Position numbers and translations under genes: made by a program. The notes beneath the pieces are model-generated. The model was not told the DNA's origin. It ran no database searches and saw only the letters and a program-made list of their open reading frames with translations. 64,000 nucleotides of DNA from a virus. Positions 15,053 to 56,172 of this stretch are shown here, in pieces (position 1 is the stretch's first letter; each line of letters starts with the position of its first letter). Location: IMG/VR virus record IMGVR_UViG_3300033146_004974, positions 1 through 64,000 of that record; one strand, given 5' to 3'.

Positions 15053-15106
15053 AAAACCACGCAAATTCATAGCGTGCTTGACAGATGCGCCGGACGGTGT
15101 TACAGT
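15053..15106 (+). promoter_or_regulatory. Bipartite phage promoter a (upstream of tRNA-Lys)
   Basis: The 16-bp box AAAACCACGCAAATTC ends exactly 9 bp before TTGACA (15078-15083); TACAGT follows after 17 bp (15101-15106). It would transcribe tRNA-Lys and the operon with the FtsZ-like and SSB genes. Confidence 0.7.
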
Positions 15107-15128
15107 GTGTGCATGACTTGAGGTTGAA

Positions 15129-15200
15129 GGGACTTTAGCTTAACGGTAAAGCAACTGACTTTTAATCAGTAGATTCTGAGTTCAAATCTCAGGAGTCCCA
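15129..15200 (+). tRNA. tRNA-Lys (anticodon TTT)
   Basis: A full cloverleaf can be drawn: acceptor GGGACTT / GAGTCCC, D arm with GCTTAACGGTAAAGC, anticodon stem ACTGA / TCAGT with loop CTTTTAA, T arm CTGAG-TTCAAAT-CTCAG, discriminator A. The anticodon reads TTT (Lys). CCA is not encoded (TGA follows), so the phage CCA-adding enzyme at 57 kb, or a host one, is needed. It is nearly identical outside the anticodon region to the second tRNA at 26918. Confidence 0.93.
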
Positions 15201-15296
15201 TGACAAGTAAAAGAGGAGGACAGGGATTATAAAAACATATCCCAGTGGAAATTGATTTGTAAAAGGTTATATTTTTTTAAAGGACAAGGAAAGAAG

Positions 15297-15569
15297 ATGA
15301 TTACAAACTTAAAGCAATTGGTTGAAAATATCCCAGAAGAGTTTAAAGATCTTACGACAAAGAGAGCAAATGTTCGTTTTGAAGGCGAAACAAGCACTAT
15401 CGAACTCAAAAAAGATGAAGGTTATGAGGCAATATACACTTATTCAGATGAGAATGGAATTTTTGTGCGGATTACAACTCCTAAAACTTCCAATTGGAAT
15501 GCGATGATTAGACAACTTGGAACAATGATGTCCAAGTCCCACGTGATTCTTCATGATTTTGTGAGCTGA
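15297..15569 (+). CDS. Small protein of unknown function
   Basis: The product has 90 residues and an AAGGACAAGGAAAG ribosome site. The sequence alternates charged and hydrophobic residues in a compact alpha/beta pattern (ANVRFEGETSTIELKK, FVRITTPKTSNWNAMI). I do not recognise it. It heads the set of genes for the FtsZ-like protein and the single-strand DNA-binding protein and is probably transcribed with tRNA-Lys from promoter a. The ATG at 15297 is preferred over an upstream in-frame non-ATG start because of its ribosome site. Confidence 0.75.
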   Translation: MITNLKQLVENIPEEFKDLTTKRANVRFEGETSTIELKKDEGYEAIYTYSDENGIFVRITTPKTSNWNAMIRQLGTMMSKSHVILHDFVS

Positions 15570-15571
15570 GA

Positions 15572-16393
15572 ATGAAAATTATAACAATAGGTGAAGCAAG
15601 CTTTCAAATAGGGCTCAAATATTCATTGCATTCAGCATGCGAAGTTTTAAGCATTGACTCAGAAAGAAAAAATAATAGAACTATTGTTATAAATGAACAA
15701 AATTCGGCAAAAGAATACGAAAGGAATTTTGCTATTGATTTAGATCTTTTGCCACTTGGAGAAGAGATCTTTTTATTTGTCTCAGATGGATCAAAAATTT
15801 CTGGGATAACTTTGAGTCTGCTTGCCGTTCTGATTTCAAGAAACAATAGAATCAATCTTATCCAGATTCAGACTGAAAAATCTTTGATGACAAAAGAAGT
15901 TGAAAAGCATAGTGTAATCTTTAACAAAGTGCTAAAAGATGTTGCTTTATCAGGTTATATCGAAAGATTATTGATTTTTAATAATCAGAGACTAATTAAT
16001 CTCGTTAGAAAAGAACCTGGTGTTAATTTTATTAATCTTTATTCAAGAATTAATGAATTGATCTCATGGTATTTGTTTCTATTGTACGAAGGTCTCGAAG
16101 GGGAAAGATTATATGGCTCAAAATTCAACAAAGTGGCAGAATATGCCAGAATCGAAACACTTGGAGTACTTAACTTAGAGACTTTTGAGACGGTTCTTTT
16201 TGCGGAGTTTAAACAGCCGAGAAGCAAACATTTTTTCATTTTTTTGAACAAGGAGGATGCGCGAAACACAGAGATAGCCAACAGAATCATAAATAATATC
16301 AGAAAAACAGAAGATCAAATGCAAATCACCTTCACAGTACACTCAACAATGGACAGAAGTGAAGGTTTGTGCCTAACAAGAACATCAATTTAA
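15572..16393 (+). CDS. Divergent FtsZ/tubulin-like protein
   Basis: The 273-residue product has the order of elements of the tubulin/FtsZ GTPase fold. The N-terminal strand (MKIITIGEASFQIG) is followed by a second strand ending in NEQNS, where FtsZ has NTD. EEIFLFVSDGSKISGITLSLLAVL (about residues 64-87) sits where FtsZ has the GGGTGTG tubulin signature. INLIQIQTEKS, then YIERLLIFNNQRL, matches the FtsZ 'NDKL' strand. A C-terminal beta domain ends in QITFTVHSTMDRSEG. The glycine-rich signature is degraded (SDGSKISG) and I see no T7 catalytic loop, so GTP hydrolysis may be lost. It is placed beside the SSB gene. Fold assignment is by eye and needs structure prediction. Confidence 0.5.
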   Translation: MKIITIGEASFQIGLKYSLHSACEVLSIDSERKNNRTIVINEQNSAKEYERNFAIDLDLLPLGEEIFLFVSDGSKISGITLSLLAVLISRNNRINLIQIQTEKSLMTKEVEKHSVIFNKVLKDVALSGYIERLLIFNNQRLINLVRKEPGVNFINLYSRINELISWYLFLLYEGLEGERLYGSKFNKVAEYARIETLGVLNLETFETVLFAEFKQPRSKHFFIFLNKEDARNTEIANRIINNIRKTEDQMQITFTVHSTMDRSEGLCLTRTSI

Positions 16394-16409
16394 CAAAAAG
16401 GAAAGACCA

Positions 16410-17276
16410 ATGGCTTTTAATTTAGACGCAATCAAACAAAAATTTCAGGACGCCAGCGAAGGGAAAAACATCAAGTCTGGAGGCAACAACCAGACATTTT
16501 TCTTTAAATGTCAAGAGAACGAAACAAGAATAATCCGCCTCATTGAACACCCAGAAGTGAAATTGGAAAATGATTTTGCCGAAGAAAGGCATTTTCATTA
16601 TGTGACAATTCCAGGTCAAAAGGAGCGCGTTGCTTTCATTTGTCCTAAAAGAACCTATGGTGGCGAATGTCCAATCTGCAATCTTTCTTACGCATTGTGG
16701 GATCAGGTCAAAGAGAGATGGCCAAGTCGTGATGAAAGATTTAACAATCCAGAAGCAAACAGGGTTTCACGCCTTGTTAAGTCGCTTTTCTCTGTTCATC
16801 GCTTTTATTCTTACGTCCTCCCACGGAAATTGAACGAGAATGAACAAGGACCTCTTATTTGGGGTTATTCTAGCAACGTTCATGATAAACTCATGAAATA
16901 TTTCGTTGATGAAGATTGGGGCAACATTGCCGATGTTCATGAAGGCTTTGACATCAAAGCAGAGTTGGTAAAGGGGAAGCAATTCAATGAGTACAGCATT
17001 AAAATTCGTCCAAAGTCTGTTCCATTGGCTTCTTCAGACGAAGAAATCCAGGAGATTTTTGACAAAACATCATTGATTTCTTCTGGCGAAATGGCAAAAT
17101 ATTTTGTCAAAATGCCTCATGAAGAAATGGTAAATCTTGCTGACAAGTTCTATAAGGGATATGTTCTGGCAACTGGCGGAACTGTCGAAGATGTTTCAAA
17201 CGAAAGTATGAGAGGCGGAGACGATGACGCTTCGACAAAATTTGCAGCATTTGATGATCCAGATATTCCATTCTAA
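16410..17276 (+). CDS. Single-stranded DNA-binding protein (gp32-like, SSB-like tail)
   Basis: The 288-residue protein looks like a T4 gp32-type ssDNA-binding protein. It has a basic N-terminus and a core with a probable zinc site (H61/H63, C78, C87, C90 in FICPKRTYGGECPICNL). The C-terminal tail is acidic and ends in AFDDPDIPF, which closely matches the protein-docking tip of bacterial SSB (DDDIPF). The tail would recruit replication partners. It would coat single strands during phage replication and recombination. An AAAGGAAAG ribosome site precedes the ATG; a 13-bp stem hairpin follows the stop. Confidence 0.85.
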   Translation: MAFNLDAIKQKFQDASEGKNIKSGGNNQTFFFKCQENETRIIRLIEHPEVKLENDFAEERHFHYVTIPGQKERVAFICPKRTYGGECPICNLSYALWDQVKERWPSRDERFNNPEANRVSRLVKSLFSVHRFYSYVLPRKLNENEQGPLIWGYSSNVHDKLMKYFVDEDWGNIADVHEGFDIKAELVKGKQFNEYSIKIRPKSVPLASSDEEIQEIFDKTSLISSGEMAKYFVKMPHEEMVNLADKFYKGYVLATGGTVEDVSNESMRGGDDDASTKFAAFDDPDIPF

Positions 17277-17287
17277 AGCGCGTTAAA

Positions 17288-17319
17288 AATCCTGCTTCAC
17301 CATTTTGTGAAGCAGGATT
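17288..17319 (+). terminator. Strong hairpin after the SSB gene
   Basis: A 13-bp perfect stem (AATCCTGCTTCAC / GTGAAGCAGGATT) with a six-base loop lies 11 bases after the SSB stop. The T run comes only after CAAAAG, so termination efficiency is uncertain. A new phage promoter follows directly, supporting an operon boundary. Confidence 0.65.
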
Positions 17320-17335
17320 CAAAAGTTTTTAATTT

Positions 17336-17389
17336 GAAACACGCCACATTTTCACCATGCTTGACAAAACAGCGCTATTGTGGCATGGT
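17336..17389 (+). promoter_or_regulatory. Bipartite phage promoter b
   Basis: Box GAAACACGCCACATTT (17336-17351) ends 9 bp before TTGACA (17361-17366). CATGGT lies 17 bp downstream (17384-17389). It serves the ankyrin-like gene. Confidence 0.65.
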
Positions 17390-17426
17390 GGGAAATGTGG
17401 TGCAAACCTTAGCACATGGAGAGAAA

Positions 17427-18188
17427 ATGTCAGCACAACAAATCCTCGAAAGAATCGTTGAACAATTTGATATTGATTATGTCGAATTTGCTATAAACGA
17501 GTTTGATTGCAACATGATCGAATGGGAAAAACCGAGATTGCAATATGCGATGAACAACAGGGGAAACAGAGAGATATTCTACCAAATTGTGAGGAGATTC
17601 AAATATTCGAATAAGGAGATGCGAAAGGCATTAAAAGTTTATTTAAATGAAATGTCTGGCATAAATGAGTTGGTTGTTTCGTTTATTTTAAACAAGCTGG
17701 GGAAAGATCGTTATGAATTTGATTTGAGTGAGGAAATGGTCGAAGTGAAAAACACTTCGATGTTAAGAGTATTAATGAGGCACAGTTCTTTAACAGCTTT
17801 GAAAAAAGCTGCACTAAGAAAAGTTGAGCAATATGATGTACAAGTTTTTTTTGAAGAACCTTTTTTATATTCAAGAGAATATAAAAAAATTGGCGAGCAG
17901 TTTTTGTTAACTTTTTTGTTGGCAGCAATAGAAGTTAACAAAACAGAATTGTTCAGATTTGTTGTTAACGAGTTTGAACAATTGGATTTGACTTCTAATA
18001 ACAACATGCTGTTGCAGGCTGCGATTGAACACGAATGCGATGATGAGCTTATTGACATTTTGATTGAAAGAGGGGCCAGTTTTAATTCAATTGGGATGGA
18101 ACTGGCCCCTCTTGGGGATTGGAGCACTACTACTTCCAAATGGGAATTAATGAAACAGTTGTACAATTTCATAAACGAAAAGAAATAA
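17427..18188 (+). CDS. Ankyrin-repeat-like protein
   Basis: The 253-residue product starts at ATG 17427 behind GGAGAG; longer in-frame starts would run back through promoter b. The C-terminal half has helical repeats of ankyrin type: LLTFLLAAIEVNKTELFRF, then LLQAAIEHECDDELIDILIE and RGASFNSIG. The N-terminal half has similar spacing but weaker consensus. Ankyrin repeats bind other proteins, so a host-factor or phage-protein binding role is likely, without a defined partner. A 14-bp inverted repeat lies within the coding sequence near its end (18068-18113). A second ankyrin-like protein is encoded at 62205. Confidence 0.75.
   Translation: MSAQQILERIVEQFDIDYVEFAINEFDCNMIEWEKPRLQYAMNNRGNREIFYQIVRRFKYSNKEMRKALKVYLNEMSGINELVVSFILNKLGKDRYEFDLSEEMVEVKNTSMLRVLMRHSSLTALKKAALRKVEQYDVQVFFEEPFLYSREYKKIGEQFLLTFLLAAIEVNKTELFRFVVNEFEQLDLTSNNNMLLQAAIEHECDDELIDILIERGASFNSIGMELAPLGDWSTTTSKWELMKQLYNFINEKK
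18068..18113 (+). repeat. 14-bp perfect inverted repeat inside the ankyrin-like gene
   Basis: AAGAGGGGCCAGTT (18068-18081) and AACTGGCCCCTCTT (18100-18113) flank an 18-base loop. In RNA this would be a very stable hairpin 75 bases before the stop codon and 78 bases before the next gene. It may act as an RNA processing or attenuation site for the nucleotidyltransferase gene. Confidence 0.7.
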
Positions 18189-18190
18189 AG

Positions 18191-19327
18191 ATGTTCTTGA
18201 GTGGTGAAAAATTCTTTGAAACTTCACAATTGTACAAGCATAGACAAAAAATGAAACTTCCAAAACAGTCTGGAACTCCTTGGCTCAACGACAGAACAAT
18301 TTTCTTAACAAAAACTGGTTCACAAGCTTATGGAACATCTTTGCCGACTTCTGATTTGGACATCAGAGGAATTGCAGTTGCTCCAAAAGAATTTTATCAT
18401 GGTTTTGTGAAGAAGTTTGAACAAGCTATTTTCAAAGAGCCCGATGCGGTTGTCTATGAATTGCAAAAATTTATGGACCTTGCAGCCAAGGCCAATCCAT
18501 CAATTTTGGAAATGCTTTGGACAGATCCAGAAGATCATTTGAAAGTGACTTCAAGTGCTCAAAAACTGCTGGATAACCGTGACTTATTCTTATCCAAGAA
18601 GGTGAGATATACTTTTCTGGGATACGCAATGAGTCAATTGAAGAGAATCAAAACTCATAAAAAATGGCTGCTCAATCCTCCCAAAAAACAGCCAAAACGT
18701 TCTGATTTTGATCTCCCAAAAAGGAAACCTTTGCCTCGTGAACAAATGGGCGCTTTAAATTCTTTGATCCAAAGAAAGCTTGACTCTTGGCAAATTGATT
18801 GGGAAATTTTTGAGATCAACGAAAGGAGAAAATTTAAAGAAGAATTGCAAGAGATTCTTGAAGAAATGCAGTTGGGAAAAGGCGAGCAACAATTTTCTGC
18901 TGCTGCAAGAGTTATTGGAATCGATGAAAATTTTGTACAGCTTTTGATGAGAGAAAGGGGATATGCTGATGCCAAAAAGAATTGGAAGAATTATCAGAAC
19001 TGGAAGTTAAACAGGAATAAAAAAAGAGCTGCTTTGGAAGCAGCATTCGGATATGATGCAAAACATGCAATGCATCTTGTTCGATTGTGTCGCATGGGTA
19101 CAGAAATTTTAGAAACTGGAATTGTCCGAGTCCGAAGACCTGACGCTGAAGAACTTTTGGAAATCAGAAGTGGGGCATGGCCTTATGAAAAACTCATCAA
19201 TTGGGTTGAAAAACAGGAAGACAAATTCGCAGAGTTGTACAAAACAAGCGATTTGCCGAACAAGCCCAACAGACAAAAGCTTGACAAATTGTGCTGCGAA
19301 ATTGTTGGAGAAATGATGGAAAAATGA
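18191..19327 (+). CDS. RlaP-type nucleotidyltransferase (DNA polymerase beta superfamily)
   Basis: The 378-residue protein carries the minimal nucleotidyltransferase signature TKTGSQAYGTSLPTSDLDIRG: G43-S44 and the metal ligands D55 and D57. The following region (EFYHGF, a VYELQKFMDLAAKANPSILE segment) fits the RlaP/YcgL-type family linked to RNA repair. The middle, about residues 160-240, is Lys/Pro-rich (LLNPPKKQPKRSD). The ATG at 18191 follows the previous stop by two bases. The last 130 bases of the gene are repeated at 19740. In the context of phage tRNAs, CCA-adding enzyme and RNA ligase, an RNA repair role is the best guess. Confidence 0.8.
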   Translation: MFLSGEKFFETSQLYKHRQKMKLPKQSGTPWLNDRTIFLTKTGSQAYGTSLPTSDLDIRGIAVAPKEFYHGFVKKFEQAIFKEPDAVVYELQKFMDLAAKANPSILEMLWTDPEDHLKVTSSAQKLLDNRDLFLSKKVRYTFLGYAMSQLKRIKTHKKWLLNPPKKQPKRSDFDLPKRKPLPREQMGALNSLIQRKLDSWQIDWEIFEINERRKFKEELQEILEEMQLGKGEQQFSAAARVIGIDENFVQLLMRERGYADAKKNWKNYQNWKLNRNKKRAALEAAFGYDAKHAMHLVRLCRMGTEILETGIVRVRRPDAEELLEIRSGAWPYEKLINWVEKQEDKFAELYKTSDLPNKPNRQKLDKLCCEIVGEMMEK

Positions 19328-19474
19328 TGAACAACATTGATTGGAAAAGTCAATCGAAAACCTTTTGAGGACAATTTCAAAGGAAATCCCAGAATTTGAA
19401 ATTGTCGAAAAGAAAAAAAGTTGGTTCATGAAGTTTTTGTCAATTCTTCTGTTTTTTAATAAAAACTTCATGAA
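19196..19474 (+). repeat. Direct repeat, left copy (279 bp)
   Basis: This segment matches 19740-20019 with scattered substitutions and a one-base deletion. It covers the end of the nucleotidyltransferase gene and the beginning of a metallopeptidase gene. The left copy has the intact end of the first gene and a broken start of the second. Confidence 0.9.
19324..19474 (+). pseudogene. Broken 5' fragment of the membrane metallopeptidase gene
   Basis: This corresponds to the first 150 bases of the peptidase gene at 19868. A one-base deletion (GATTGGAAAAGTCAATCG against GATTGGGAGAGGTCAATTG) shifts the frame and leads to a TGA after 14 codons. The match stops at 19474, where foreign-looking sequence starts. 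It keeps only remnants of the ESWFMKFL-like hydrophobic segment in another frame. Confidence 0.85.
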
Positions 19475-19492
19475 ACCACAAGGTTAGAAGAA

Positions 19493-19732
19493 ATGGGGAT
19501 AGACCAGAGGACCATACAGATGAACCGGAAGACACAAAGAGATATTGAGCAACTTTTCGAGGAGAGACTTCGACGATACCTCACCCGCGAATTGTTGCCA
19601 CTGTACGGGATAAAATTATACAACCAGCCAATCTTCCTCAAATTGAAGCTAGATAAATCTATTGTCTGCGAGGTGTACACGGCTCTGATGAAGATGCACG
19701 AGGCACGAATATCTTCCTGCGAGGACAAATGA
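19493..19732 (+). CDS. Small inserted ORF of unknown function
   Basis: The 79-residue product is rich in Arg, Leu and Glu (RDIEQLFEERLRRYLTRELL) and ends with MHEARISSCEDK. It lies in the 265-bp unique segment between the two direct repeats. My hand count gives about 45 percent G+C for this ORF, visibly above the AT-rich neighbours, and it uses codons such as ACC, CCG and CTC more freely. The ribosome site is weak (AGAAG). It looks like recently acquired DNA. No family recognised. Confidence 0.55.
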   Translation: MGIDQRTIQMNRKTQRDIEQLFEERLRRYLTRELLPLYGIKLYNQPIFLKLKLDKSIVCEVYTALMKMHEARISSCEDK

Positions 19733-19739
19733 TGGAGCA

Positions 19740-19871
19740 ATCAATTGGGTTGAAAAACAGGAAGACAAATTCGCAGAGTTGTACAAAACAAGCGATTTGC
19801 CAAACAAGCCCAATAGAAAAAGGCTTGACAAATTGTGTTGCGAAATCGTTGAAGAAATGTTGGAGAAATGA
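19740..19871 (+). pseudogene. 3' fragment of the nucleotidyltransferase gene
   Basis: This is the second copy of the last 44 codons of the RlaP-type gene, in frame to its TGA but without any start or N-terminus of that gene. Most differences from the left copy are third-position changes, as between alleles of related phages. Confidence 0.85.
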
Positions 19872-20019
19872 TGAATAGCATTGATTGGGAGAGGTCAATT
19901 GAAAACCTTTTGAGGACAATTTCAAAGGAGATCCCAGAATTTGAAATTGTTGAAAAGGAAAAAAGTTGGTTCATGAAGTTTTTGTCAATTCTTCTGTTTT
20001 TTAACAAAAACTTCATGAA
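19740..20019 (+). repeat. Direct repeat, right copy (280 bp)
   Basis: This is the partner of 19196-19474. It has the fragmentary end of the nucleotidyltransferase gene and the intact start of the peptidase gene, the reverse of the left copy. Confidence 0.9.
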
Positions 20020-20530
20020 GATGACAACAACGATTGGAAACAAAGTTTATATTCCAAAGGAGGTGAATGAAGGAGAAAGAAAAAGGGCATTTGCTATTCT
20101 TGCGCACGAATTTGCGCATTTGCGTGATTTCAAAGAGGGGAAGCTTTCATTTTCTTACGGTTATTTGTCGTCACAAATTGATTTTATTTTCTTTCTCCCA
20201 TTCATTATGATATCATTTGCGGCACATGAGCCGATCTTGGCGTTTTGGTTATTGTCAATTGGCCTTTTTAAACTTCTCCCCGGTTCTTTTTTTCGTTCGC
20301 AAGCGGAAGTGCGCGGATATGTGGCGAATAGTCTGGTTAACGAATTAGTTTATGGCTATAGAACTGATTTTGATGTGCTTTGGGACAAGACTTTTCTTTC
20401 ATGGAAATATTACAAGATGGGAGTAGGATGCGACAAAGAATATTTCCGAATATATTTCAATCATTTGCATGATACGGACCACTATACTTATATCAAAGAA
20501 TCATTATGCGTGATAGAGGGTGTTTTATAG
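19868..20530 (+). CDS. Membrane-associated zinc metallopeptidase-like protein
   Basis: The 220-residue protein contains AFAILAHEFAHLRDFKEGK, a gluzincin-type HExxH motif near residue 78. About residues 96-140 form two or three hydrophobic segments (IDFIFFLPFIMISFAAHEPILA, FWLLSIGLFKLLPG). Downstream FFRSQAEVRGYV provides a Glu (AEVRGY) at the place of a third zinc ligand. It may cleave membrane or envelope proteins. The beginning of the gene is duplicated at 19324. The start has two adjacent ATG codons overlapping the preceding fragment's TGA. Confidence 0.7.
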   Translation: MMNSIDWERSIENLLRTISKEIPEFEIVEKEKSWFMKFLSILLFFNKNFMKMTTTIGNKVYIPKEVNEGERKRAFAILAHEFAHLRDFKEGKLSFSYGYLSSQIDFIFFLPFIMISFAAHEPILAFWLLSIGLFKLLPGSFFRSQAEVRGYVANSLVNELVYGYRTDFDVLWDKTFLSWKYYKMGVGCDKEYFRIYFNHLHDTDHYTYIKESLCVIEGVL

Positions 20531-22721: not shown

Positions 22722-22898
22722 ATGGCTAAAAAGAACAAGAAAGAAGATTTGAAGAAACGTGATCCATTTGCTTATCAACTCATTTTTAGAACGGGGAAGG
22801 GCGGTCATAAGGACAAGAGGAAAAAGGGTTCAAAAAAGCAACAAGCTCAAAGAATGATTGATGATGCTTTGGAAGATGAGTGGGAAGATGACGAATAA
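22722..22898 (+). CDS. Very short basic protein
   Basis: A 58-codon frame begins one base after the previous stop. The product is Lys-rich at the front (MAKKNKKEDLKKRD, GGHKDKRKKGSKKQ) and acidic at the end (LEDEWEDDE). It could bind nucleic acid. The end overlaps the start of the next gene. Close packing supports its reality; the function is unknown. Confidence 0.6.
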   Translation: MAKKNKKEDLKKRDPFAYQLIFRTGKGGHKDKRKKGSKKQQAQRMIDDALEDEWEDDE

Positions 22899-23394
22899 AG
22901 AACAACAAAGAGAGTTTATTTATCATATTGTAGCATTGGAGGGGCCAATTGCGAGAAGTGAACTTGTGAAGTTAGGTGAGAAGGCAGGATTAAAGGTCTC
23001 AGAAATAAACGCTTCTGTTAGGCACTTAACTGAAAACAATCATTTATTATTTAATAGCGAAATGCGTTTAGAGTGCAAGAAAGAAATTGTTAAGCACAGT
23101 GCTGAATTTGAGTGTTATGATTCGGTAAAGGAAATTCTTGTCAAAAGCTCTTTTCTTTACGAGGAGGTTGATGATAAAATTTTTGTCACTCTTGATTCAT
23201 CAAGATTCAAACATGATGAACTGGAAAGAACAATTTTCAAAAAACTAAGAGAAGTTATGCCTCATCGTTTTAAGAAAAATAAGGGAAAGTATTACAGATT
23301 GTCGCGTTCCATTCCTGCATCTTCTGGCACAAGAAGATATGAACTCTATTCAGAGGATATTTCTGCAATTATTCCGAAAAAGTTTGCTGTTTGA
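22888..23394 (+). CDS. Possible winged-helix protein
   Basis: The 168-residue product starts at ATG 22888 behind GGGAAG. The first 65 residues look like a winged helix: a REFIYHIVALEGPIARSELV helix, then LKVSEINASVRHLTENNHLL as recognition helix and wing. Two more alpha/beta segments follow, with FKKLREVMPHRFKKNKGKYY basic near the C-terminus. It may bind DNA as a regulator. Promoter c lies directly behind it. The family is not identified. Confidence 0.6.
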   Translation: MTNKEQQREFIYHIVALEGPIARSELVKLGEKAGLKVSEINASVRHLTENNHLLFNSEMRLECKKEIVKHSAEFECYDSVKEILVKSSFLYEEVDDKIFVTLDSSRFKHDELERTIFKKLREVMPHRFKKNKGKYYRLSRSIPASSGTRRYELYSEDISAIIPKKFAV

Positions 23395-23446
23395 AACTCG
23401 AAAGATTAGCGTGAGGCTTGACAAACACGACTAAACAGGGTATGCT
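23393..23446 (+). promoter_or_regulatory. Bipartite phage promoter c
   Basis: Box GAAACTCGAAAGATTA (23393-23408) ends 9 bp before TTGACA (23418-23423). TATGCT lies 17 bp downstream (23441-23446). It is the best -10 match of the set and serves the DUF3310 gene. Confidence 0.75.
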
Positions 23447-36109: not shown

Positions 36110-36577
36110 ATGTATATTAAATTTTCATTAGAGGAAGAAGGGATGAAGGCTCCAACTAGGAGCAATCGGTCTGATGCGGGACTGGATGTTTATTTCAACC
36201 AGGCTGATTCGCATCTTTCATCTATAACAGTACATCCAGGCCAGAATTATTTGTTTGCGACAGGTTGCAGATTTGAAATTCCACATGGTTACGCATTGAT
36301 GGTTAAAAACCGTTCTGGGATGGCATCAAGACATAATTTGTTGAAAGGTGCTCAATTGATTGATGCAGGTTATTCAGGAGTTGTTTACATTGATTTACAT
36401 AATGTTGGGGAAGAGGCGGTAACAATCAAAAATGGCACCAAGATCGCTCAATTGGTTTTAGTTCCGGTTTTATCGTTTGATCTGGTTCAAGCTGACAAAG
36501 ATGATTTGTATTCCAAAGAAATTGTTTTCTCAGAAAGGGGAGAAGGAGGGTTTGGCTCAACGGATTCAAAAAAGTAA
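36110..36577 (+). CDS. dut: dUTPase (trimeric, Dut)
   Basis: The 155-residue protein has all five dUTPase motifs in order: SDAGLDVYF, NRSGMASRH (motif 2), GAQLIDAGYSGVVYIDLHN (motif 3), NGTKIAQLVLVPV (motif 4), and the flexible glycine-rich end RGEGGFGST (motif 5). It hydrolyses dUTP to dUMP, which feeds ThyX and keeps uracil out of DNA. AAAGGAAAG precedes the ATG. It is followed by promoter d. Confidence 0.95.
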   Translation: MYIKFSLEEEGMKAPTRSNRSDAGLDVYFNQADSHLSSITVHPGQNYLFATGCRFEIPHGYALMVKNRSGMASRHNLLKGAQLIDAGYSGVVYIDLHNVGEEAVTIKNGTKIAQLVLVPVLSFDLVQADKDDLYSKEIVFSERGEGGFGSTDSKK

Positions 36578-36622
36578 GAATTGACGAGTTGCTTGACAAT
36601 ACAGCGCTGCTTATGAGATAGT
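36568..36622 (+). promoter_or_regulatory. Bipartite phage promoter d (weak box)
   Basis: TTGACA at 36593-36598 and GATAGT 18 bp downstream (36617-36622). The 16 bp ending 9 bp upstream of the -35 reads AAAAAAGTAAGAATTG, so only the AATT half of the box is conserved; it overlaps the end of the dUTPase gene. Downstream GTGAAGGTGC is shared with promoters e and f. Confidence 0.6.
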
Positions 36623-36663: not shown

Positions 36664-36969
36664 ATGAGTTTAATTGATACAATCAACAACACATTTGAGC
36701 AAATTGAAGAGAAGTTAGAACAAAACACATCAACAAAGGAGGAGCATGTTAAAGCCTTTGTCGAAGAATTTGAAAAGATTGAAGAACAGTTTGCTGCTCT
36801 TCGCGAAGAAAGGAAACAATTAATTGATGAGTACACAAACAATAATTGGTTGACAAAGGATGATGTCAAAATGATTAAGCGTGCGATCAGAATCGTGAAG
36901 TCAGAAACGGATTTTGAAGAGTTAGCAGAATTTATCAATCCTGCGATGGAAGCATTAGGCGAAGTTTGA
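36664..36969 (+). CDS. Coiled-coil protein of unknown function
   Basis: The 101-residue acidic protein starts at ATG 36664 behind AGGAGAGG. It is almost fully helical with heptad-like spacing (TFEQIEEKLEQN, FEKIEEQFAALREERKQLID), probably a coiled-coil dimer. The first gene after promoter d. The stop overlaps the next ATG (TGATG). Confidence 0.7.
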   Translation: MSLIDTINNTFEQIEEKLEQNTSTKEEHVKAFVEEFEKIEEQFAALREERKQLIDEYTNNNWLTKDDVKMIKRAIRIVKSETDFEELAEFINPAMEALGEV

Positions 36970-44685: not shown

Positions 44686-44901
44686 ATGAAATTTTGCAAA
44701 GAATCGGAAGAAGTCAAATCGTTTGAAAATGATTTTGAAGCTTTTGTTTTATATGAAGAATGGGGTGTTGATGATTGTTGTTTCAAATGTTGTTTTATTT
44801 ATTTCGCATGTTGTTTTATTGCAGTTGATAATACGCCCGTCTTAGAGAACCAAGTGGGACCTACACATGTAAGTTACAATTTCAGCAGAAATTGGATGTG
44901 A
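44686..44901 (+). CDS. Small Cys-rich peptide, copy 1 (possible precursor peptide)
   Basis: The 71-residue product shares an acidic N-terminal part with copy 2 (ESEEVKSFENDFEAFVLYEE) and a conserved C-terminus (HVSYNFSRNWM). In between it has a unique stretch of seven Cys with aromatic residues (DDCCFKCCFIYFACCF). Constant leader with variable Cys-rich segment, in tandem and beside two radical SAM genes, is what one would expect of a RiPP precursor; it could equally be a small metal-binding protein. GGTGATGCA precedes the ATG. Confidence 0.65.
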   Translation: MKFCKESEEVKSFENDFEAFVLYEEWGVDDCCFKCCFIYFACCFIAVDNTPVLENQVGPTHVSYNFSRNWM

Positions 44902-44933
44902 TACAATAAAGTTGGCAAAAGACGAAAGTCTTC

Positions 44934-44987
44934 GAAACAGCACGAATCCTCGCCGTGTTTGACTCCTGAGCGCGGGTGTGACATTGT
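44934..44987 (+). promoter_or_regulatory. Bipartite phage promoter e
   Basis: Box GAAACAGCACGAATCC (44934-44949), 9 bp, TTGACT (44959-44964), 17 bp, CATTGT (44982-44987), then GAAGGTGC. It serves peptide copy 2. The region is one unit of a tandem duplication with promoter f. Confidence 0.7.
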
Positions 44988-45037
44988 GAAGGTGCAAGCG
45001 AAGGAATATCACAAACACGTTGTACAAGGCGTTGACA

Positions 45038-45232
45038 ATGAAATTCCGTCAAGAATCAGAAGAAGTCGAATCGTTTGAAAATGATTTCGAAACTTTTGTT
45101 ATATATGAAGAATGGGATATTGATGATTGTTATTTCGCATGTGGTCCTGCTGGAGTTGATAATACGCCCCACTTGGAGAATCAAGTGGGGCTTACACATG
45201 TAAGTTACAATTTCAGCAGAAATTGGATGTGA
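45038..45232 (+). CDS. Small peptide, copy 2 (possible precursor peptide)
   Basis: The 64-residue paralogue of copy 1 has the same acidic leader (ESEEVESFENDFETFVIYEE) and C-terminus, but a shorter middle with only two Cys (DDCYFACGPAGVDNTP). Differences between the copies in the shared parts include silent third-base changes (e.g. GATTTT/GATTTC), which supports coding. ATG 45038 is the start that aligns with copy 1. A strong 10-bp hairpin lies inside the gene's 3' part (45166-45191). Confidence 0.65.
   Translation: MKFRQESEEVESFENDFETFVIYEEWDIDDCYFACGPAGVDNTPHLENQVGLTHVSYNFSRNWM
45166..45191 (+). repeat. 10-bp perfect hairpin in peptide copy 2
   Basis: GCCCCACTTG (45166-45175) and CAAGTGGGGC (45182-45191) enclose GAGAAT; CTTAC-ACAT-GTAAG follows as a second small dyad. 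Copy 1 has only a decayed version of the first stem. Confidence 0.7.
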
Positions 45233-45264
45233 TACAACAAAGTTTGCGAAAGGTGATACATCTT

Positions 45265-45318
45265 GAAACGGCGCAAATTCGTACTGTGCTTGACTCCTAA
45301 GCGCTAGTGTGGCATTGT
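45265..45318 (+). promoter_or_regulatory. Bipartite phage promoter f
   Basis: Box GAAACGGCGCAAATTC (45265-45280), 9 bp, TTGACT (45290-45295), 17 bp, CATTGT (45313-45318), then GAAGGTGC. It is the closest copy to the consensus box (identical to h) and drives the first radical SAM gene. Confidence 0.75.
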
Positions 45319-50841: not shown

Positions 50842-51168
50842 ATGAGTAAAGAAATTTTAAAAACTGAACAAACACAAGAGAAGTTACAGGCTGTTGAGAT
50901 TGAAGTTGTGAAGCAACGTTCGATTTTAAAACTTTTAGATTTTTTAAACGAATCCAGTTACAATTATGATTTTGTAAATGGCAAAGGGCACTTCTTTCGT
51001 TTGAGATTGAAGATTGCTGGACAAGAAATGAACGAATATGCTACAATTGATTTTCATTTTTTATTTGCAGCAGCAGAAGGTGAATATCAGTTTTTGAACA
51101 AATTTAAGAATTATTTGCTTTCCATCTTAACAATTATAGACACGGAATTGTTAAGATGGAAAGCATAA
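50842..51168 (+). CDS. Protein of unknown function
   Basis: The 108-residue protein, mainly helical, begins after AAGGAAGGAAA. Segments VEIEVVKQRSILKLLDFLNE and HFLFAAAEGEYQFLNKFKNY suggest a compact domain. It is the last gene before a 146-bp gap. Not recognised. Confidence 0.65.
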   Translation: MSKEILKTEQTQEKLQAVEIEVVKQRSILKLLDFLNESSYNYDFVNGKGHFFRLRLKIAGQEMNEYATIDFHFLFAAAEGEYQFLNKFKNYLLSILTIIDTELLRWKA

Positions 51169-51203
51169 TGAAAAATGAAAAACCACCATCTTCTTAGGTA
51201 CAC

Positions 51204-51224
51204 CCGCGCGCATTATGCGCGCGG
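51204..51224 (+). repeat. G+C-rich perfect hairpin in the 51.2-kb gap
   Basis: CCGCGCGCA (51204-51212) and TGCGCGCGG (51216-51224) around TTA. This is the most G+C-rich run of the window. No T tract follows. The rest of the gap (51169-51314) contains no gene and no phage promoter box. Confidence 0.7.
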
Positions 51225-51314
51225 CACGCAAGAGCGTTATAGTAAAAAGAATGATAACCTTCAGGGGGCTAAAATTTATTGCTAGTTTTCAGAAAATTTT
51301 AAAAGGAAGCTACA

Positions 51315-51521
51315 ATGAAATTTAAGGAGTTTTCACCAAATATTAATGCAGCTTTCACCGGATGGACGTTGTTCGAAACGATTAGAATAATGTCAAAGGA
51401 AGGTGAAGTGGTGATGAGATGCGAAAATATGGACTGGCTTTGGGAATATCAAGAGATTGATGGAATTAAGGTGCAAACCATATTTAAAATAGGGCAATAT
51501 TTCTCAAGAGTTGAACAATAA
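51315..51521 (+). CDS. Small protein of unknown function
   Basis: The 68-residue protein begins after AAAAGGAAGC. It has WTLFETIRIMSKEGEVVMRC followed by an acidic/aromatic stretch (NMDWLWEYQEID) and a beta-like end. Not recognised. Confidence 0.6.
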   Translation: MKFKEFSPNINAAFTGWTLFETIRIMSKEGEVVMRCENMDWLWEYQEIDGIKVQTIFKIGQYFSRVEQ

Positions 51522-51549
51522 ATGTGATGGTTAAAACGTGAGGTCAAAA

Positions 51550-51636
51550 ATGGTTAATATCATTTTAACAATGGCTTGGCTATCCATTTTGATAGCCTTC
51601 GCCATTCTTTTTTATTTAAGATTTAGCCATGAATAG
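51550..51636 (+). CDS. Tiny membrane peptide (28 residues)
   Basis: The peptide is almost entirely one hydrophobic helix (IILTMAWLSILIAFAILFYL) with a short polar tail (RFSHE). The upstream GTGAGGTC is a reasonable ribosome site. It is one of several tiny single-span proteins of this phage. Confidence 0.5.
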   Translation: MVNIILTMAWLSILIAFAILFYLRFSHE

Positions 51637-51683
51637 CTCGGAATTCGCGCGCCACTTGACTAGACATGTGCCTATGTTAATGT
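51631..51683 (+). promoter_or_regulatory. Bipartite phage promoter i
   Basis: GAATAGCTCGGAATTC (51631-51646) is a partial box (GAA...AATTC), 9 bp before TTGACT (51656-51661). TAATGT lies 16 bp downstream (51678-51683). It is the only family member with a dyad operator-like sequence on the core promoter. Confidence 0.6.
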
Positions 51684-51688
51684 CTAGT
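51659..51688 (+). promoter_or_regulatory. Operator-like inverted repeat over promoter i
   Basis: ACTAGACAT (51659-51667) and ATGTCTAGT (51680-51688) form a perfect 9-bp dyad with a 12-bp centre. It covers the end of the -35, the spacer and the -10, so a bound dimeric repressor would block the promoter. Confidence 0.6.
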
Positions 51689-51713
51689 CATGGCATGGCA
51701 AAGGGGGAGTAGC

Positions 51714-52442
51714 GTGCGACAAAAAATAGAATTTCTCTTGAATTCGATTACGAACGTTAAAACAGGAAGACATGCTATAAGAAAGATGTCTAGACTTTTA
51801 AAGGAAAATGGCGAATTTGTTGCACCAATTGGTTTGGGCAATATAAAAACGGGATTGCCCGGATTTTATCGAAAGGTTGGTGACAATTGTCCAACTTGTA
51901 AGTTTAAAAACGATGGGTGTTACGCTCAACTTGGTTATGTTGGGATTGTTGAAAAACGTTCTCCAACTTCTTCTGAAGCGGCTTTGAACGGATTTCTTAT
52001 CTCCACAATTGTTTCGCAAAAATATTACAACAAACCTTCAAGATTGTTTGTATCTGGTGATATTTTTATAAATGGAGAATATGACAAAGAATTACATAAT
52101 TCTTTAATTGAAGCTGGACAAATTCTCCAAACAATTTTTGGAACAGAAACTCTTGCATATGGATACACTCATGGCAAAAATCTTTTAAAAGAAATTAAAG
52201 AATTGAAGAGTGCTGGAATTGTTTTATTGCAATCAGAATTTCATGGTGTTGGAGGTTCTGTTGTTCATCATTTTAATAAATTTGATGAGCTAAAAAGTAA
52301 TGAATTTCGCTACATAAAATGTCCTGCACAGCTCAGAAAAGATTTCCAATGCAGTGATTGCAAATTATGTATCAAATCTTATGAAAAGAAGTTGTGCATT
52401 GTTTTTAATCCACATGGGGCACTGAAAGGGAAATTCAAATGA
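51714..52442 (+). CDS. Phage gp88-like cysteine-rich protein
   Basis: The 242-residue protein probably starts at GTG 51714 behind GGGGGAG; an ATG at 51690 lacks a ribosome site. It has a first Cys group (GDNCPTCKFKNDGCYAQLG) and a late one (IKCPAQLRKDFQCSDCKLCI, then EKKLCIVFNPHG). This two-cluster arrangement is that of the 'gene product 88' family of phages, of unknown activity; a metal cluster is likely. It is under promoter i and overlaps the metallophosphoesterase gene by four bases. Confidence 0.6.
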   Translation: MRQKIEFLLNSITNVKTGRHAIRKMSRLLKENGEFVAPIGLGNIKTGLPGFYRKVGDNCPTCKFKNDGCYAQLGYVGIVEKRSPTSSEAALNGFLISTIVSQKYYNKPSRLFVSGDIFINGEYDKELHNSLIEAGQILQTIFGTETLAYGYTHGKNLLKEIKELKSAGIVLLQSEFHGVGGSVVHHFNKFDELKSNEFRYIKCPAQLRKDFQCSDCKLCIKSYEKKLCIVFNPHGALKGKFK

Positions 52443-53170
52443 GAATTCAAATTGTTTCTGATCTGCACATTGAAAATTATGCAGATTACAATTGGCTTAT
52501 TGAAGAGATAATAGCAACAAAAAACAAATATAAATCCGACATTCTTGCAATTGCAGGAGATGTCGGAAATTATCCGAAAAATTTAGAATTGATTGAAAAA
52601 TTTGGGAAATATTTTTCTCAAGTTATTTTTGTATGGGGGAACCACGATTATTACAACAACCGTGGAAAATTAATTTTAGAAACCGAAAAAAGATTCGCAA
52701 AATCGGATAATATCCATTGGTTGCAACAAAATAGAATCGAAATTGATGGTCAAGGGTTTATTGGGGCGACATGCTGGTTCCCCAAAAGAAAAGATGATCA
52801 AAAATATGCTCACATGATGGCCAACAAAATTTATTCTGAATCAGAAGGAATGTCGTGGATTTATTCTCAACATCGCTTGGCAAAGAAATTTTTTAAAGAA
52901 AATATGAAAGATGGTGATATAGTTTTGACTCACCATATGCCAACATATCGATGCGTGAGTCCAAAATTTTCTGGTTCCCCTTTGAATCGTTTTTTTGTCT
53001 CTTCAATGACGAAAGAAATTAAAAAGGCTAAACCTTCTTTGTGGATTTGTGGTCATACACATGACAAATTTTCGGTAGAACAGTTTGAAACAGCAATTGT
53101 AGCAAATCCTTTTGGATATCCGAGCGAGATAAGGTTGCGAGGAATTTCAGAACTTGTTTTGGAATGGTGA
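52439..53170 (+). CDS. Calcineurin-like metallophosphoesterase
   Basis: The 243-residue protein has the five family blocks: IQIVSDLHIE, AIAGDVGNYP, FVWGNHDYY, VLTHHMPTY and WICGHTHDKF, all with the metal-binding Asp, Asn and His. It would hydrolyse phosphomono- or diesters; the substrate is not evident (nucleotides, or RNA ends, are possible). It starts in the previous gene's stop (ATGA). Confidence 0.92.
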   Translation: MRIQIVSDLHIENYADYNWLIEEIIATKNKYKSDILAIAGDVGNYPKNLELIEKFGKYFSQVIFVWGNHDYYNNRGKLILETEKRFAKSDNIHWLQQNRIEIDGQGFIGATCWFPKRKDDQKYAHMMANKIYSESEGMSWIYSQHRLAKKFFKENMKDGDIVLTHHMPTYRCVSPKFSGSPLNRFFVSSMTKEIKKAKPSLWICGHTHDKFSVEQFETAIVANPFGYPSEIRLRGISELVLEW

Positions 53171-53189
53171 GCACTGTTTGAAACATTCT

Positions 53190-53243
53190 GAAACGGCACG
53201 AATTCACGCTCCGCTTGACAAAACAGAGGTGTTCATGCGACGC
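53190..53243 (+). promoter_or_regulatory. Bipartite phage promoter g
   Basis: Box GAAACGGCACGAATTC (53190-53205), 9 bp, TTGACA (53215-53220). The -10 at 17 bp (CGACGC) is poor; TAGATT lies at 53245-53250, a 24-bp spacer. Sequence from the -35 on is alike in promoter h (AAACAG...CATGC...ATTGTGGG). Confidence 0.6.
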
Positions 53244-53289
53244 TTAGATTGTGGGAAAGACATAAAGCGTTGACCAAACGGGGGGAAAA

Positions 53290-53517
53290 ATGAAAAAGAA
53301 TCTTTGGATCATTGCAAAAAAAAGTCAGGGAGCAGAAATTGTTTACTGTTTTCATGATTCTTTTCATGGAGCTACCAAGGATTTAAGAGAGAATCGTTAT
53401 CCATTCTCTCACTACCTTCGAAGAGAAAATGACAACGATTTTTATCGTTGTCATTTCTGCAAAAGGAAGATGCGATTAAATGAAAGATGTTCTTGCACGA
53501 TTCCTAAAAGAGGATGA
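53290..53517 (+). CDS. Small zinc-ribbon-like protein
   Basis: The 75-residue protein carries YRCHFCKRKMRLNERCSC near its end, a C-x2-C...C-x-C metal-binding set. The first half is aromatic. GGGGGAAAA precedes the ATG. Its TGA overlaps the next ATG (ATGA). Role unknown; maybe RNA or protein binding. Confidence 0.65.
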   Translation: MKKNLWIIAKKSQGAEIVYCFHDSFHGATKDLRENRYPFSHYLRRENDNDFYRCHFCKRKMRLNERCSCTIPKRG

Positions 53518-53942
53518 GTAAGTATTTCTCGGAAGAGGGAAAGATTGTTCAATTGTCCAGAAGACAAAAAAATATCGTTTCCCTAGCAAAGAATATCTCT
53601 TTTCAATCACAACATCCGACTTTTTTTCATGGTGCCGTTCTAGTTCGTGGTTCAATAATCATTAACACAGCGTGCAATACCTTGGACTATTCTTACTTTG
53701 GGAATAGATTTAGAAATGATGGTTTCAAAGCGACTCGTCACGCTGAGTTGAGTGTCATTTTAGGAATTCCCAGGAAAAATACAACTGGTTCTGATATTTA
53801 TGTTGTCAGGACTAATAAAGATTCTATGTTTTGTAATTCAAAACCTTGCATGATGTGTAGCAATGCTATGTTATATGTTGGCATCAAAAGAGTCTTTTTC
53901 TCTGATGAAAAAGGATTCATCAGAGTTATCAAATTGCTATAG
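53514..53942 (+). CDS. Cytidine/deoxycytidylate deaminase-like protein
   Basis: The 142-residue protein has the zinc-deaminase signature: TRHAELSVILG (H76, E78) and KPCMMCSNAMLYVGIKRV (C112, C115). The LVRGSIIINTACNT strand and GSDIYVVRTN strand fit the fold. Substrate could be dCMP, cytidine or a tRNA base; the tight dCMP-deaminase features are not obvious. If dCMP deaminase, it supplies dUMP to ThyX. Confidence 0.75.
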   Translation: MSKYFSEEGKIVQLSRRQKNIVSLAKNISFQSQHPTFFHGAVLVRGSIIINTACNTLDYSYFGNRFRNDGFKATRHAELSVILGIPRKNTTGSDIYVVRTNKDSMFCNSKPCMMCSNAMLYVGIKRVFFSDEKGFIRVIKLL

Positions 53943-53961
53943 CCTCGCCCTGGGAGAAACG

Positions 53962-55308
53962 ATGCGTCAAGTAAGAATCCATTCAACAAGAGTTAAAGAT
54001 TTTGAAAGAAGGTTGCGCGCAATTGAAAAGAAGGCGCGCAAGGCTGGAATCGAACCACCAAAGGCTCAATTTTCGACTCTTGAAGAAGTTCCTTATTTTT
54101 CCTATGATGGGAAAGATTTGGATTCTTATGATGGTTCGAGAACTCCCCGTGGATATCATGTCTATCATATTTATATGGTGACAAAACCCGATTATCAACT
54201 CCCTGGAGGATGGGAGTTGAAAGCTGCAATTGAACATGAAGAGGAAGCCAACATGATTTATTCATGGGATGGAGATAAATCTTATGAAGAATTCAGAAAA
54301 GCTCCTGCCATTTGTGATCATTGCAAAACGAATCGCAAAAGGAATTTGACATATCTTGTCAAAAATTCTGAAGGGGACCTAAGACAAGTTGGCAAAACTT
54401 GTTTGAAGGAATATATGGGAATCGATGCTGCGAAAGCGTTGCTAGCCATTGATTCAACTCGTTTGGAAAATATGGGTTGGGATGGTGAGGCAAAAATTCC
54501 ATCAAGATATCCAATTCATTTGACAATTGCTCTTGCAAAAGAGGAGATTGAAACAAGTGGATATCATAAAACCTCGGAAAAAAACTCGACGAAAGATGCT
54601 GTTATCGAAACGTTTATGATGTTGGAAAGCAGGAACGAAAAAGTCTTGCAAAGCGCCAAGGGCTATATTGCAAAAGCTTTAGACAAACATGGACAGTATG
54701 CAAAGGAAGCTGTTATTTGGATGAAGTCCGAAACTTTTGACAATGATTATTTAAACAATTTGAAGGCAATCTGTTTAACTTCTTCTGTTTCAACAAAGAG
54801 AATGGGACTTCTCGTTTCAATGCCTTTGGCATATGACAATCATTTGAAAAAGTTGAATGCAGACAAAACAAATGACATTGAATCTGTTTATTTTGGAAGA
54901 GTCGGGGATAAGATTGGCACTCTTTTGACAAAAAGTGATCGCACTTGTGAAAGATTGACTTATTTCACCAATTTAAAAACTGGTGAAATTGTCGCATTTT
55001 CCGACACTAGATTGACCAATTTGCGAGCACAAGATTATGACAAATCTATGCTAGCAGGTTTGTTTTTAACTGTTACCACAAGGAAAGTTGTCGATGGTTA
55101 TTACGGTGTTAGTACATTATTAAAAATGGTTGACTCCGAAGGGCATTTGTTCGTTTATTTTAAAAGCGGATATTTTGACGAAGTAGTTGATCCCGGTGAT
55201 CAAATTATTTTGAAAGGAACAATCAAGAGGCATGAAATTTTCAACAATGTTAAGCAAACAGTTTTGACAAGATGCTCAATCACTAAACTTCAAGGTGTAG
55301 AAGAATGA
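53962..55308 (+). CDS. Conserved phage/plasmid-type protein with Cys-rich segment, function unknown
   Basis: The 448-residue protein starts at ATG 53962 behind GGGAGAAA. It begins with a basic helix (FERRLRAIEKKARKAGIEPP). About residues 110-155 carry ICDHCKTNRKRNLTYLVKN and DLRQVGKTCLKEYMG, a block that I remember from many phage and plasmid proteins of unknown function. The C-terminal part (VDGYYGVSTLLKMVDSEGHL, VDPGDQIILKGTIKRHE) looks like an OB-fold, so single-stranded nucleic acid binding is possible. Overlaps the next gene by four bases. Confidence 0.7.
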   Translation: MRQVRIHSTRVKDFERRLRAIEKKARKAGIEPPKAQFSTLEEVPYFSYDGKDLDSYDGSRTPRGYHVYHIYMVTKPDYQLPGGWELKAAIEHEEEANMIYSWDGDKSYEEFRKAPAICDHCKTNRKRNLTYLVKNSEGDLRQVGKTCLKEYMGIDAAKALLAIDSTRLENMGWDGEAKIPSRYPIHLTIALAKEEIETSGYHKTSEKNSTKDAVIETFMMLESRNEKVLQSAKGYIAKALDKHGQYAKEAVIWMKSETFDNDYLNNLKAICLTSSVSTKRMGLLVSMPLAYDNHLKKLNADKTNDIESVYFGRVGDKIGTLLTKSDRTCERLTYFTNLKTGEIVAFSDTRLTNLRAQDYDKSMLAGLFLTVTTRKVVDGYYGVSTLLKMVDSEGHLFVYFKSGYFDEVVDPGDQIILKGTIKRHEIFNNVKQTVLTRCSITKLQGVEE

Positions 55309-55505
55309 AAGTTTACAAGAAAATTGAATATATTTTACAGTGCGACATATGTCGCACAATCCTAAGCTTCACGATTGGCGAAGCTCTTGAAAACGATAAC
55401 CAATTGGAATGCCCAGAATGCCACAATTTTTTAATGGTTGGCGAGGATATCCCAAGCGTATATCTCACCATTGAAGAATATGAGGAAAAGGAAAAAAGAC
55501 GTTGA
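55305..55505 (+). CDS. Small zinc-ribbon protein
   Basis: The 66-residue protein has two CxxC pairs (LQCDICRTIL; LECPECHNFL) 22 residues apart, a treble-clef or zinc-ribbon pattern. Very acidic C-terminus. It starts in the previous stop. Possibly a small RNA-polymerase- or ribosome-binding protein; unproven. Confidence 0.7.
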   Translation: MKVYKKIEYILQCDICRTILSFTIGEALENDNQLECPECHNFLMVGEDIPSVYLTIEEYEEKEKRR

Positions 55506-55963
55506 AAAACGGATTTTCTAAAAAAAGAGTTCGCAAAGGATTCCCTGAATTGGTCCATGGTGAATATTATACTACAAATGTTCAACCATTCTGGAACAGG
55601 TTTGTACCATTTGATAAAGACTTGAAACTTTCAATGTTTGCTTTGTCAATTTCTTTTGAAAATTTAGAACCTTTCGCCATTGGGGTTAGGAATTTAAATG
55701 GCGAATTTCTTGTGGGATATGAAAAGACAATTCTAGGAAACGAATTGTTCACTTCGTTCGATGGCCAGAAGGAATTTTTAAACAGATTCATCACGAATCC
55801 AGAAATCAGTTTTTTATTGGTTTGGCAAAGTTTGCTTATCAATGCAGATGAGCAACAGAAGATTCCATACCTTTTGTCGAAGGAATTTGTTAACTTTTCT
55901 GGAATCGTGTTAAGAGGGAATGCGCAAAGGGTTAAGAGCTTTTCTCTTTTTGCAAAACCGTAA
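55502..55963 (+). CDS. Protein of unknown function
   Basis: The 153-residue protein has a TTG start overlapping the preceding stop. Its basic N-terminus (NGFSKKRVRKGF) is followed by an alpha/beta core (LKLSMFALSISFENLEPFAI, ISFLLVWQSLLINADEQQ). No family recognised. Confidence 0.6.
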   Translation: MKNGFSKKRVRKGFPELVHGEYYTTNVQPFWNRFVPFDKDLKLSMFALSISFENLEPFAIGVRNLNGEFLVGYEKTILGNELFTSFDGQKEFLNRFITNPEISFLLVWQSLLINADEQQKIPYLLSKEFVNFSGIVLRGNAQRVKSFSLFAKP

Positions 55964-55972
55964 GGAAAGATC

Positions 55973-56110
55973 ATGAATTTTGAAGAATCAGTCAAGCCTT
56001 CTCTTTTTGAGGAATTTGTTGAAGAACATGAATGCCTCGAATGTGGGGAATTTTTTGAAAATTGTCGTTGTAACGAAATGTTGCAAGATTTGGAAGAAGA
56101 TTTTGTTTAA
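55973..56110 (+). CDS. Very short Cys protein (45 residues)
   Basis: The frame begins after AAGGAAAG. It codes for an acidic peptide with HECLECGEFFENCRCNE, four Cys that may bind zinc. It ends just before promoter h. It was chosen over a longer frame that overlaps it because that frame has no ribosome site. Confidence 0.6.
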   Translation: MNFEESVKPSLFEEFVEEHECLECGEFFENCRCNEMLQDLEEDFV

Positions 56111-56117
56111 AAATCTT

Positions 56118-56172
56118 GAAACGGCGCAAATTCATGCGCAGTTTGACAAAACAGGTGTGCACATGCCATGCT
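56118..56172 (+). promoter_or_regulatory. Bipartite phage promoter h
   Basis: Box GAAACGGCGCAAATTC (56118-56133, identical to f), 9 bp, TTGACA (56143-56148), then CATGCT at 18 bp (56167-56172). It leads to a membrane peptide and a DUF7007-like gene. Confidence 0.7.

Follow-up and report, generated by a model that had tools for sequence, protein, structure and literature searches.

In the activated late promoters of phages P2 and P4, the site for the phage activator (Ogr-Delta) lies upstream of the -35 position, around -55, and these promoters have no good -35 element. In T4, the middle promoters carry a MotA box centred at -30 that replaces the -35 and they need a good -10, while the early promoters combine UP, -35, TGn and -10 elements with extra conserved regions, and some of them are stimulated by Alt-modified polymerase (PMC2988021). 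In prophage SPbeta ten MrpR peaks with a 15-bp motif were described and repression was shown (PMC10516654), and halovirus HF2 contains 58-bp dispersed intergenic repeats carrying promoters (PMC8707807). Elements of this kind are already known: some phage promoter classes are marked by a site peculiar to the phage, SPBRE is a repressor element, and the HF2 repeats are promoters scattered between genes. What appears to be new is the arrangement, in which a site of putative function lies directly upstream of an intact -35 in promoters that have TGn and weak -10s.

The virus record

The window analysed comprises the first 64,000 nucleotides (1-64000) of a record of 85,850 bp from an uncultivated virus, and the remaining 21.85 kb of this record were also scanned. 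The genome has 36% GC, and genes were recognised for a contractile tail sheath, a DnaB-like helicase, a DnaE-like polymerase, ribonucleotide reductase, a thymidylate synthase, dUTPase and GroEL, nearly all recognised genes being on the + strand. Since neither a terminase nor a capsid gene could be recognised in the ORFs scanned, the record is probably incomplete; its known part has a virulent look. The proteins have only distant relatives, with best identities of 41-48% in IMG/VR and below 45% in the named phages searched, and no relative was found in IMG/VR with the sheath and DnaB queries or in GTDB genomes with a nucleotidyltransferase query. The virus is probably an orphan myovirus.

Other features were observed along the record. 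At least 18 small ORFs (about 65-150 aa) occur at record positions 73619-79466 and 68306-68772 and at 44686-44901 and 45020-45232 of the window; many begin near M(K)FR and end in -WQ or -WM, neighbours in head-to-tail order often share a TGGCAATGA overlap, and the ORFs apparently form a tandem family. Ankyrin-repeat proteins are encoded at 17307-18188 (a weak match) and 62193-63170, and at record positions 64398-64946 and 79593-82235 (minus strand), the last being the largest (880 aa) and, among the long ORFs of the minus strand, the only one retained as a gene. An ArdC-like anti-restriction protein with a zincin-like peptidase domain is encoded at record 66621-67448, and a tandem repeat of about 25 bp (TGCAAAAATCCTTTCAAACATTTGA) occupies record 85658-85850, up to the record end.

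A repeated box upstream of TTGAC

The initial annotation had described nine sites with a box ending exactly 9 bp before TTGAC, and all nine coordinates and distances were found to be correct. The elements and their surroundings are the following:

14584-14612, + strand: box-less promoter-like site, TTGATT-N17-TATAAT with TGn; a candidate for the separate (early) class suggested in the initial annotation
15050-15106, + strand: element 1, box 15053-15068, -35 TTGACA 15078-15083, TGn, -10 TACAGT 15101-15106, 17-bp spacer; followed by tRNA-Lys (15129-15200) and then an ORF at 15297
17333-17389, + strand: element 2, box 17336-17351, -35 17361-17366, TGn, -10 CATGGT 17384-17389; a terminator-like hairpin just upstream and an ankyrin-like gene with a Shine-Dalgarno sequence from 17427
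23390-23446, + strand: element 3, box 23393-23408, -35 23418-23423, -10 TATGCT 23441-23446, without TGn; followed by a DUF3310-like gene (start 23468)
36565-36622, + strand: element 4, weak box copy 36568-36583, -35 36593-36598, TGn, -10 GATAGT 36617-36622, 18-bp spacer; dUTPase upstream, downstream gene start at 36664
44931-44987, + strand: element 5, box 44934-44949, -35 TTGACT 44959-44964, TGn, -10 CATTGT 44982-44987; duplicate of element 6, followed by a small MKFR-type ORF
45262-45318, + strand: element 6, box 45265-45280, -35 TTGACT 45290-45295, TGn, -10 CATTGT 45313-45318; followed by a radical SAM gene (45370)
51628-51683, + strand: element 7, box 51631-51646, -35 TTGACT 51656-51661, TGn, -10 TAATGT 51678-51683, 16-bp spacer; followed by a gp88-like gene (GTG start 51714)
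53187-53244, + strand: element 8, box 53190-53205, -35 53215-53220, TGn, -10 GACGCT 53239-53244, 18-bp spacer; followed by a zinc-ribbon-like gene (start 53290)
56115-56172, + strand: element 9, box 56118-56133, -35 56143-56148, TGn, -10 CATGCT 56167-56172, 18-bp spacer; followed by a gene with a DUF7007 domain

Between the box-less 14584 promoter and element 1 there is a 564-bp A/T-rich non-coding stretch (14565-15128), for which Rfam gave nothing but the tRNA that follows.

The pattern GAAAC-N6-AATTC-N9-TTGAC is matched exactly by three of the nine sites, the other six having one to three mismatches, and with three mismatches allowed the plain consensus is only mildly enriched (15 matches, 6.7 expected). 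In a leave-one-out matrix, the nine sites scored 19.5-38.3 bits and no other window position reached these scores; the top non-site in the window had 15.7 bits with the full matrix. The matrix, which parts the nine sites from the rest of the window, is decisive.

As the nine sites had originally been picked for their likeness, three less bias-prone tests were run, namely family hold-out, a scan of the unseen 21.85 kb and blind enumeration. The copies at 44934 and 45265 are not independent, since they lie in a duplicated segment, and those at 53190, 56118 and 64951 (the last beyond the window) are close to each other; spacers average 75% identity within these related groups. A matrix trained on 53190, 56118 and 64951 alone placed the other seven copies at ranks 4-10 of 171,636 positions (both strands), and one built from five diverged copies, with TTGAC left out, placed the other five at ranks 3-10. 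Training on the duplicated pair 44934/45265 alone made three diverged copies drop to ranks 10, 15 and 16. In the weight-matrix scan of both strands proposed in the initial annotation, the known copies outrank all other positions of the record, except for this two-site training, in leave-one-out as well as in leave-family-out form.

In the unseen part of the record a tenth copy was found at 64951, with 43 bits and a 9-bp gap, the next match there having 11.7 bits. The eleventh copy, at 71656, has 8 bp between box and TTGAC; it was first spotted in a list of intergenic regions, and a model that allows gaps and had been trained without this copy then matched it with 14.6 bits (E 0.002). There are thus at least eleven copies of the promoter design in the record. 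The 9-bp spacing that had been considered fixed is kept in ten of eleven copies, including all nine original ones, but it is not absolute, given the 8 bp of the eleventh. The intergenic region of this last copy (record 71597-71833) contains, after the element, a second promoter-like sequence, TTGACG-N17-TACTCT with TGn, without a box.

The blind search enumerated trimer pairs upstream of promoter-like TTGAC sites with no prior knowledge of the motif, and 31,250 were tested. Its top pairs, TGA, GAA, AAA or AAC at -26 to -23 combined with ATT at -13, correspond to the same motif, and they were seen 7-9 times against 0.06-0.16 expected (p 1e-12 to 1e-13.6). The same search in a distantly related 152-kb phage gave nothing comparable.

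Promoter anatomy

In the first ten copies conservation extends from -3 to about +54 relative to the box start, with a sharp stop upstream. The conserved columns are, in order, YTTGAAAC, r-GC-r-C-r-AATTC, CGC and a GC right before TTGACW. After TTGACW comes a spacer, in which a CAG-GC stretch is conserved in part, and then TGn and a weak -10. The 9-bp linker is consequently not the unrelated sequence that it had been taken for, as GC or GT directly precedes TTGAC in nine of the first ten copies.

The TTGAC is intact in every copy and the -35 is a perfect TTGACA in eight of the eleven. In one copy the -35 and the -10 are 16 bp apart and in the other ten 17 or 18 bp, and the expectation of a plausible -10 at 16-18 bp in most sites was borne out, since NANNNT is present in 11/11 copies versus 73 of the 271 other TTGAC sites (27%; p 1e-6). 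Moreover, an extended -10 (TGn), absent from the initial annotation, is found in 9/11 copies versus 18/271 other TTGAC sites (7%; p 8e-9). TTGAC, TGn and NANNNT occur in register at 14 places in the whole record, nine of which have the box. The -10 and TGn are sigma-70 extended -10 marks, and they come from sequence that played no part in the box search. By their sequence, the sites are one class of predicted sigma-70-type extended -10 promoters (TTGACW, N13-15, TGn, NANNNT), and the conserved site in front of each spans about -61 to -37, abutting the -35, with the box itself at about -61 to -46.

None of the copies has TATAAT itself, and their -10 hexamers, which match it in at most four of six positions, are poor. 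The higher the box score, the lower the -10 score (rho -0.71, n=10, p 0.022), also with related copies collapsed (rho -0.82, n=7, p 0.023), in what is a small sample of partly related copies. This relation is expected if a protein bound to the box adds binding energy or helps opening, be it an activator or a polymerase contact.

The elements have 47% GC versus 36% in the genome, and the box has conserved C and GC positions. An UP element was considered and discarded, because the A/T tracts at -40 to -60 are missing and the box is a specific mixed sequence. No conserved RNA structure was found, as RNAalifold predicts no pairs over ten copies, and Rfam gave no match except two tRNAs. A weak dyad is centred 13.5 bp after the box start, its right arm taking in the TT of TTGAC, with 44% paired versus 25%; its p value is about 0.055 after the search of all axes and the signal is weaker without related copies. 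Binding by a dimer, with the right arm over the -35, would be compatible with such a dyad, which is not significant after correction and is suggestive only. Conservation on one helical face gave p 0.045, which was not relied on because the strongest period tested was 13 bp.

Placement and occurrence elsewhere

All 11 copies are on the coding strand, and the models find none on the other strand and none within genes. Matches are thus not as frequent inside genes as between them, the outcome that would have spoken against the proposal of the initial annotation. The description of the sites as intergenic holds in that no copy is inside a gene, but the copies at 23393 and 36568 begin in the last codons of the upstream gene. 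Transcription is predicted to start about 7 bases after the -10, near 15113, 17396, 23453, 36629, 44994, 45325, 51690, 53251 and 56179 and, for the two copies beyond the window, near 65012 and 71716 of the record. In 7/11 copies a start codon with a Shine-Dalgarno sequence follows the predicted start at a distance of 15-44 nt. From the predicted start of 15053, tRNA-Lys is 16 nt on and the first start codon 184 nt on, and no Shine-Dalgarno start was found for 44934, 45265 and 71656. The proposal that the sites form a single promoter class, with an upstream box specific to the phage, is thus strongly supported, with the -10 and TGn in register, a single strand and genes just downstream. A terminator-like hairpin is found upstream of 17336, 51631 and 71656, with no obvious hairpin at most copies. 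The promoter of the gp88-like gene also has a perfect 11-bp inverted repeat, TGACTAGACAT-N12-ATGTCTAGTCA, from the -35 to past the -10 (51656-51690), which looks like a putative operator of its own.

The exact 15-base core is present in at least 118 stretches of IMG/VR, 117 of which were scored; none has the other conserved columns, the best reaching -3.9 bits versus 13.6-41.8 for the copies in the record, and therefore these matches are attributed to chance. A stricter pattern had no match in IMG/VR or in GTDB species genomes, collections that possibly do not include near relatives. The core combined with the TGn/-10 pattern gave one match, which the element model does not recognise and which was judged to be chance. 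In ten records of distant relatives (448 kb) the element model found one match only, at chance level (12.6 bits, E 0.04).

Possible modes of control

These promoters would probably place many genes under the putative control of one DNA-binding protein. We give an even chance to the proposal that the box is read by a phage-encoded activator beside the -35 of co-regulated promoters of the host RNA polymerase. A sequence-specific activator, most likely encoded by the phage, would bind the upstream site next to the -35 and touch sigma region 4 and/or the alpha C-terminal domain of the host RNA polymerase. It would thereby compensate for the poor -10 hexamers, and a set of non-structural (early or middle) genes would be turned on together. 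A phage-encoded activator is favoured because of the trade-off between box and -10, because the box does not have the A/T-rich make-up of an UP element and because no sigma-factor domain was found in the record. Against it count the small trade-off statistic from partly related copies, the eight perfect TTGACA elements with TGn mostly present, with which the promoters could work without an activator, the 8-bp gap of the eleventh copy, and the negative searches for a regulator.

The initial annotation had proposed that an activator or a sigma contact reads the box, which is plausible and favoured by the inverse relation with the -10, but no regulator was found, either among most of the unannotated ORFs (Pfam and PHROGs scans) or in searches for sigma and integrase families. 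Sigma regions 2 and 4 (PF04542, PF04545) are both without a match in the 85.85 kb of this probably incomplete record, and the ORFs scanned gave no match to an Ogr-like protein. A 178-aa orphan protein with a possible helix-turn-helix N-terminus is encoded at 22858-23394, just before element 3. It has no homologue in phage records or PDB and its structure model (22888-23391) is poor (pLDDT 53), and being HTH-like and next to a site it could be, at a guess, a regulator candidate. The regulator gene may also be in the missing part of the genome. Tentatively, and with more doubt than conviction, a phage regulator of a new family would bind a site of about 25 bp abutting the intact -35 and command at least eleven extended -10 promoters with weak -10s, as a phage-wide switch that adds to host sigma-70 recognition without replacing the -35 contact.

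It is somewhat unlikely that the box is instead a repressor operator abutting the -35 and shutting the promoter set together, in the way that MrpR acts on SPBRE in prophage SPbeta. The promoter regions of SPbeta likewise contain about ten copies of a conserved element (PMC10516654), the element here extends as far as the -35, so that a protein on it would stand in the way of the polymerase, and the weak dyad (p ~0.055) includes the TT of TTGAC in its right arm. However, poor -10s and their trade-off with the box are not expected of a repressor site. Moreover, the tyrosine-integrase family (PF00589), to which a tyrosine-recombinase-like repressor gene would belong, has no match in the known part of this virulent-looking, though probably incomplete, record.

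We consider it less probable still that the RNA polymerase itself reads the box without a separate regulator, via an alpha C-terminal domain, possibly phage-modified, or a phage-altered sigma. The T4 early promoters are a precedent (PMC2988021), the -35 and TGn are strong here too and the element runs into the -35. Nevertheless, the box is not an A/T tract like UP elements, in elements of 47% GC within a 36% GC genome, no sigma region 2 or 4 was matched in the record, and the -10s of T4 early promoters are good matches, whereas these are poor.

In five diverged copies the motif columns are 82% identical, a figure that is illustrative since the columns had been selected by conservation and the family-hold-out test carries the weight, while the linker (27%), the spacer (30%) and the flanks (26-29%) are at random level; therefore selection on particular columns, and not recent copying, seems to have kept this element. 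For this reason it is very improbable that recombination has scattered a promoter cassette over the genome, the copies being alike by descent and having no dedicated regulator, in spite of the 44934/45265 duplication, the closeness of 53190, 56118 and 64951, and the dispersed promoter repeats known in halovirus HF2 and T4-like phages.

Should the activator reading be true, it would be another way for a virus to put many genes under one switch. In an orphan phage that is otherwise hard to read, the putative regulon is clean and testable: it offers eleven predicted starts of transcription and a defined site with which the regulator could be isolated.

Comparison with known promoter systems

The activated late promoters of P2 and P4 are alike in having the phage site upstream of the -35 and differ in lacking the good -35 found here. 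The T4 middle promoters share with this class a phage-specific box with a host -10 and often TGn. The MotA box replaces the -35 (PMC2988021), whereas here the box lies at about -61 to -46, 8-9 bp upstream of a TTGAC intact in all copies, and the -10 is poor; the earlier view that the two arrangements differ is upheld. A phage-specific site combined with a kept host -35 and TGn and with poor -10s is unlike the textbook T4 replacement of the -35 contact. The T4 early promoters resemble these in their -35, TGn and -10 with extra upstream conservation, but their upstream part is an A/T-rich UP element and their -10 is good, as opposed to a specific mixed box and a weak -10.

By description, SPBRE/MrpR is similar in its roughly ten short conserved copies in promoter regions of one phage genome (PMC10516654), but SPBRE is a prophage repressor site, while in the present record no lysogeny gene was found and the -10s are weak. 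The HF2 repeats are also dispersed intergenic elements of similar length that bear promoters (PMC8707807), with an archaeal promoter type and a different sequence class. The PeSL promoter/stem-loop cassettes of T4-like phages are likewise repeated promoters between genes, and some copies here have a terminator-like hairpin upstream; the present copies, however, are marked by a conserved box and not by a stem-loop, most of them having no obvious hairpin.
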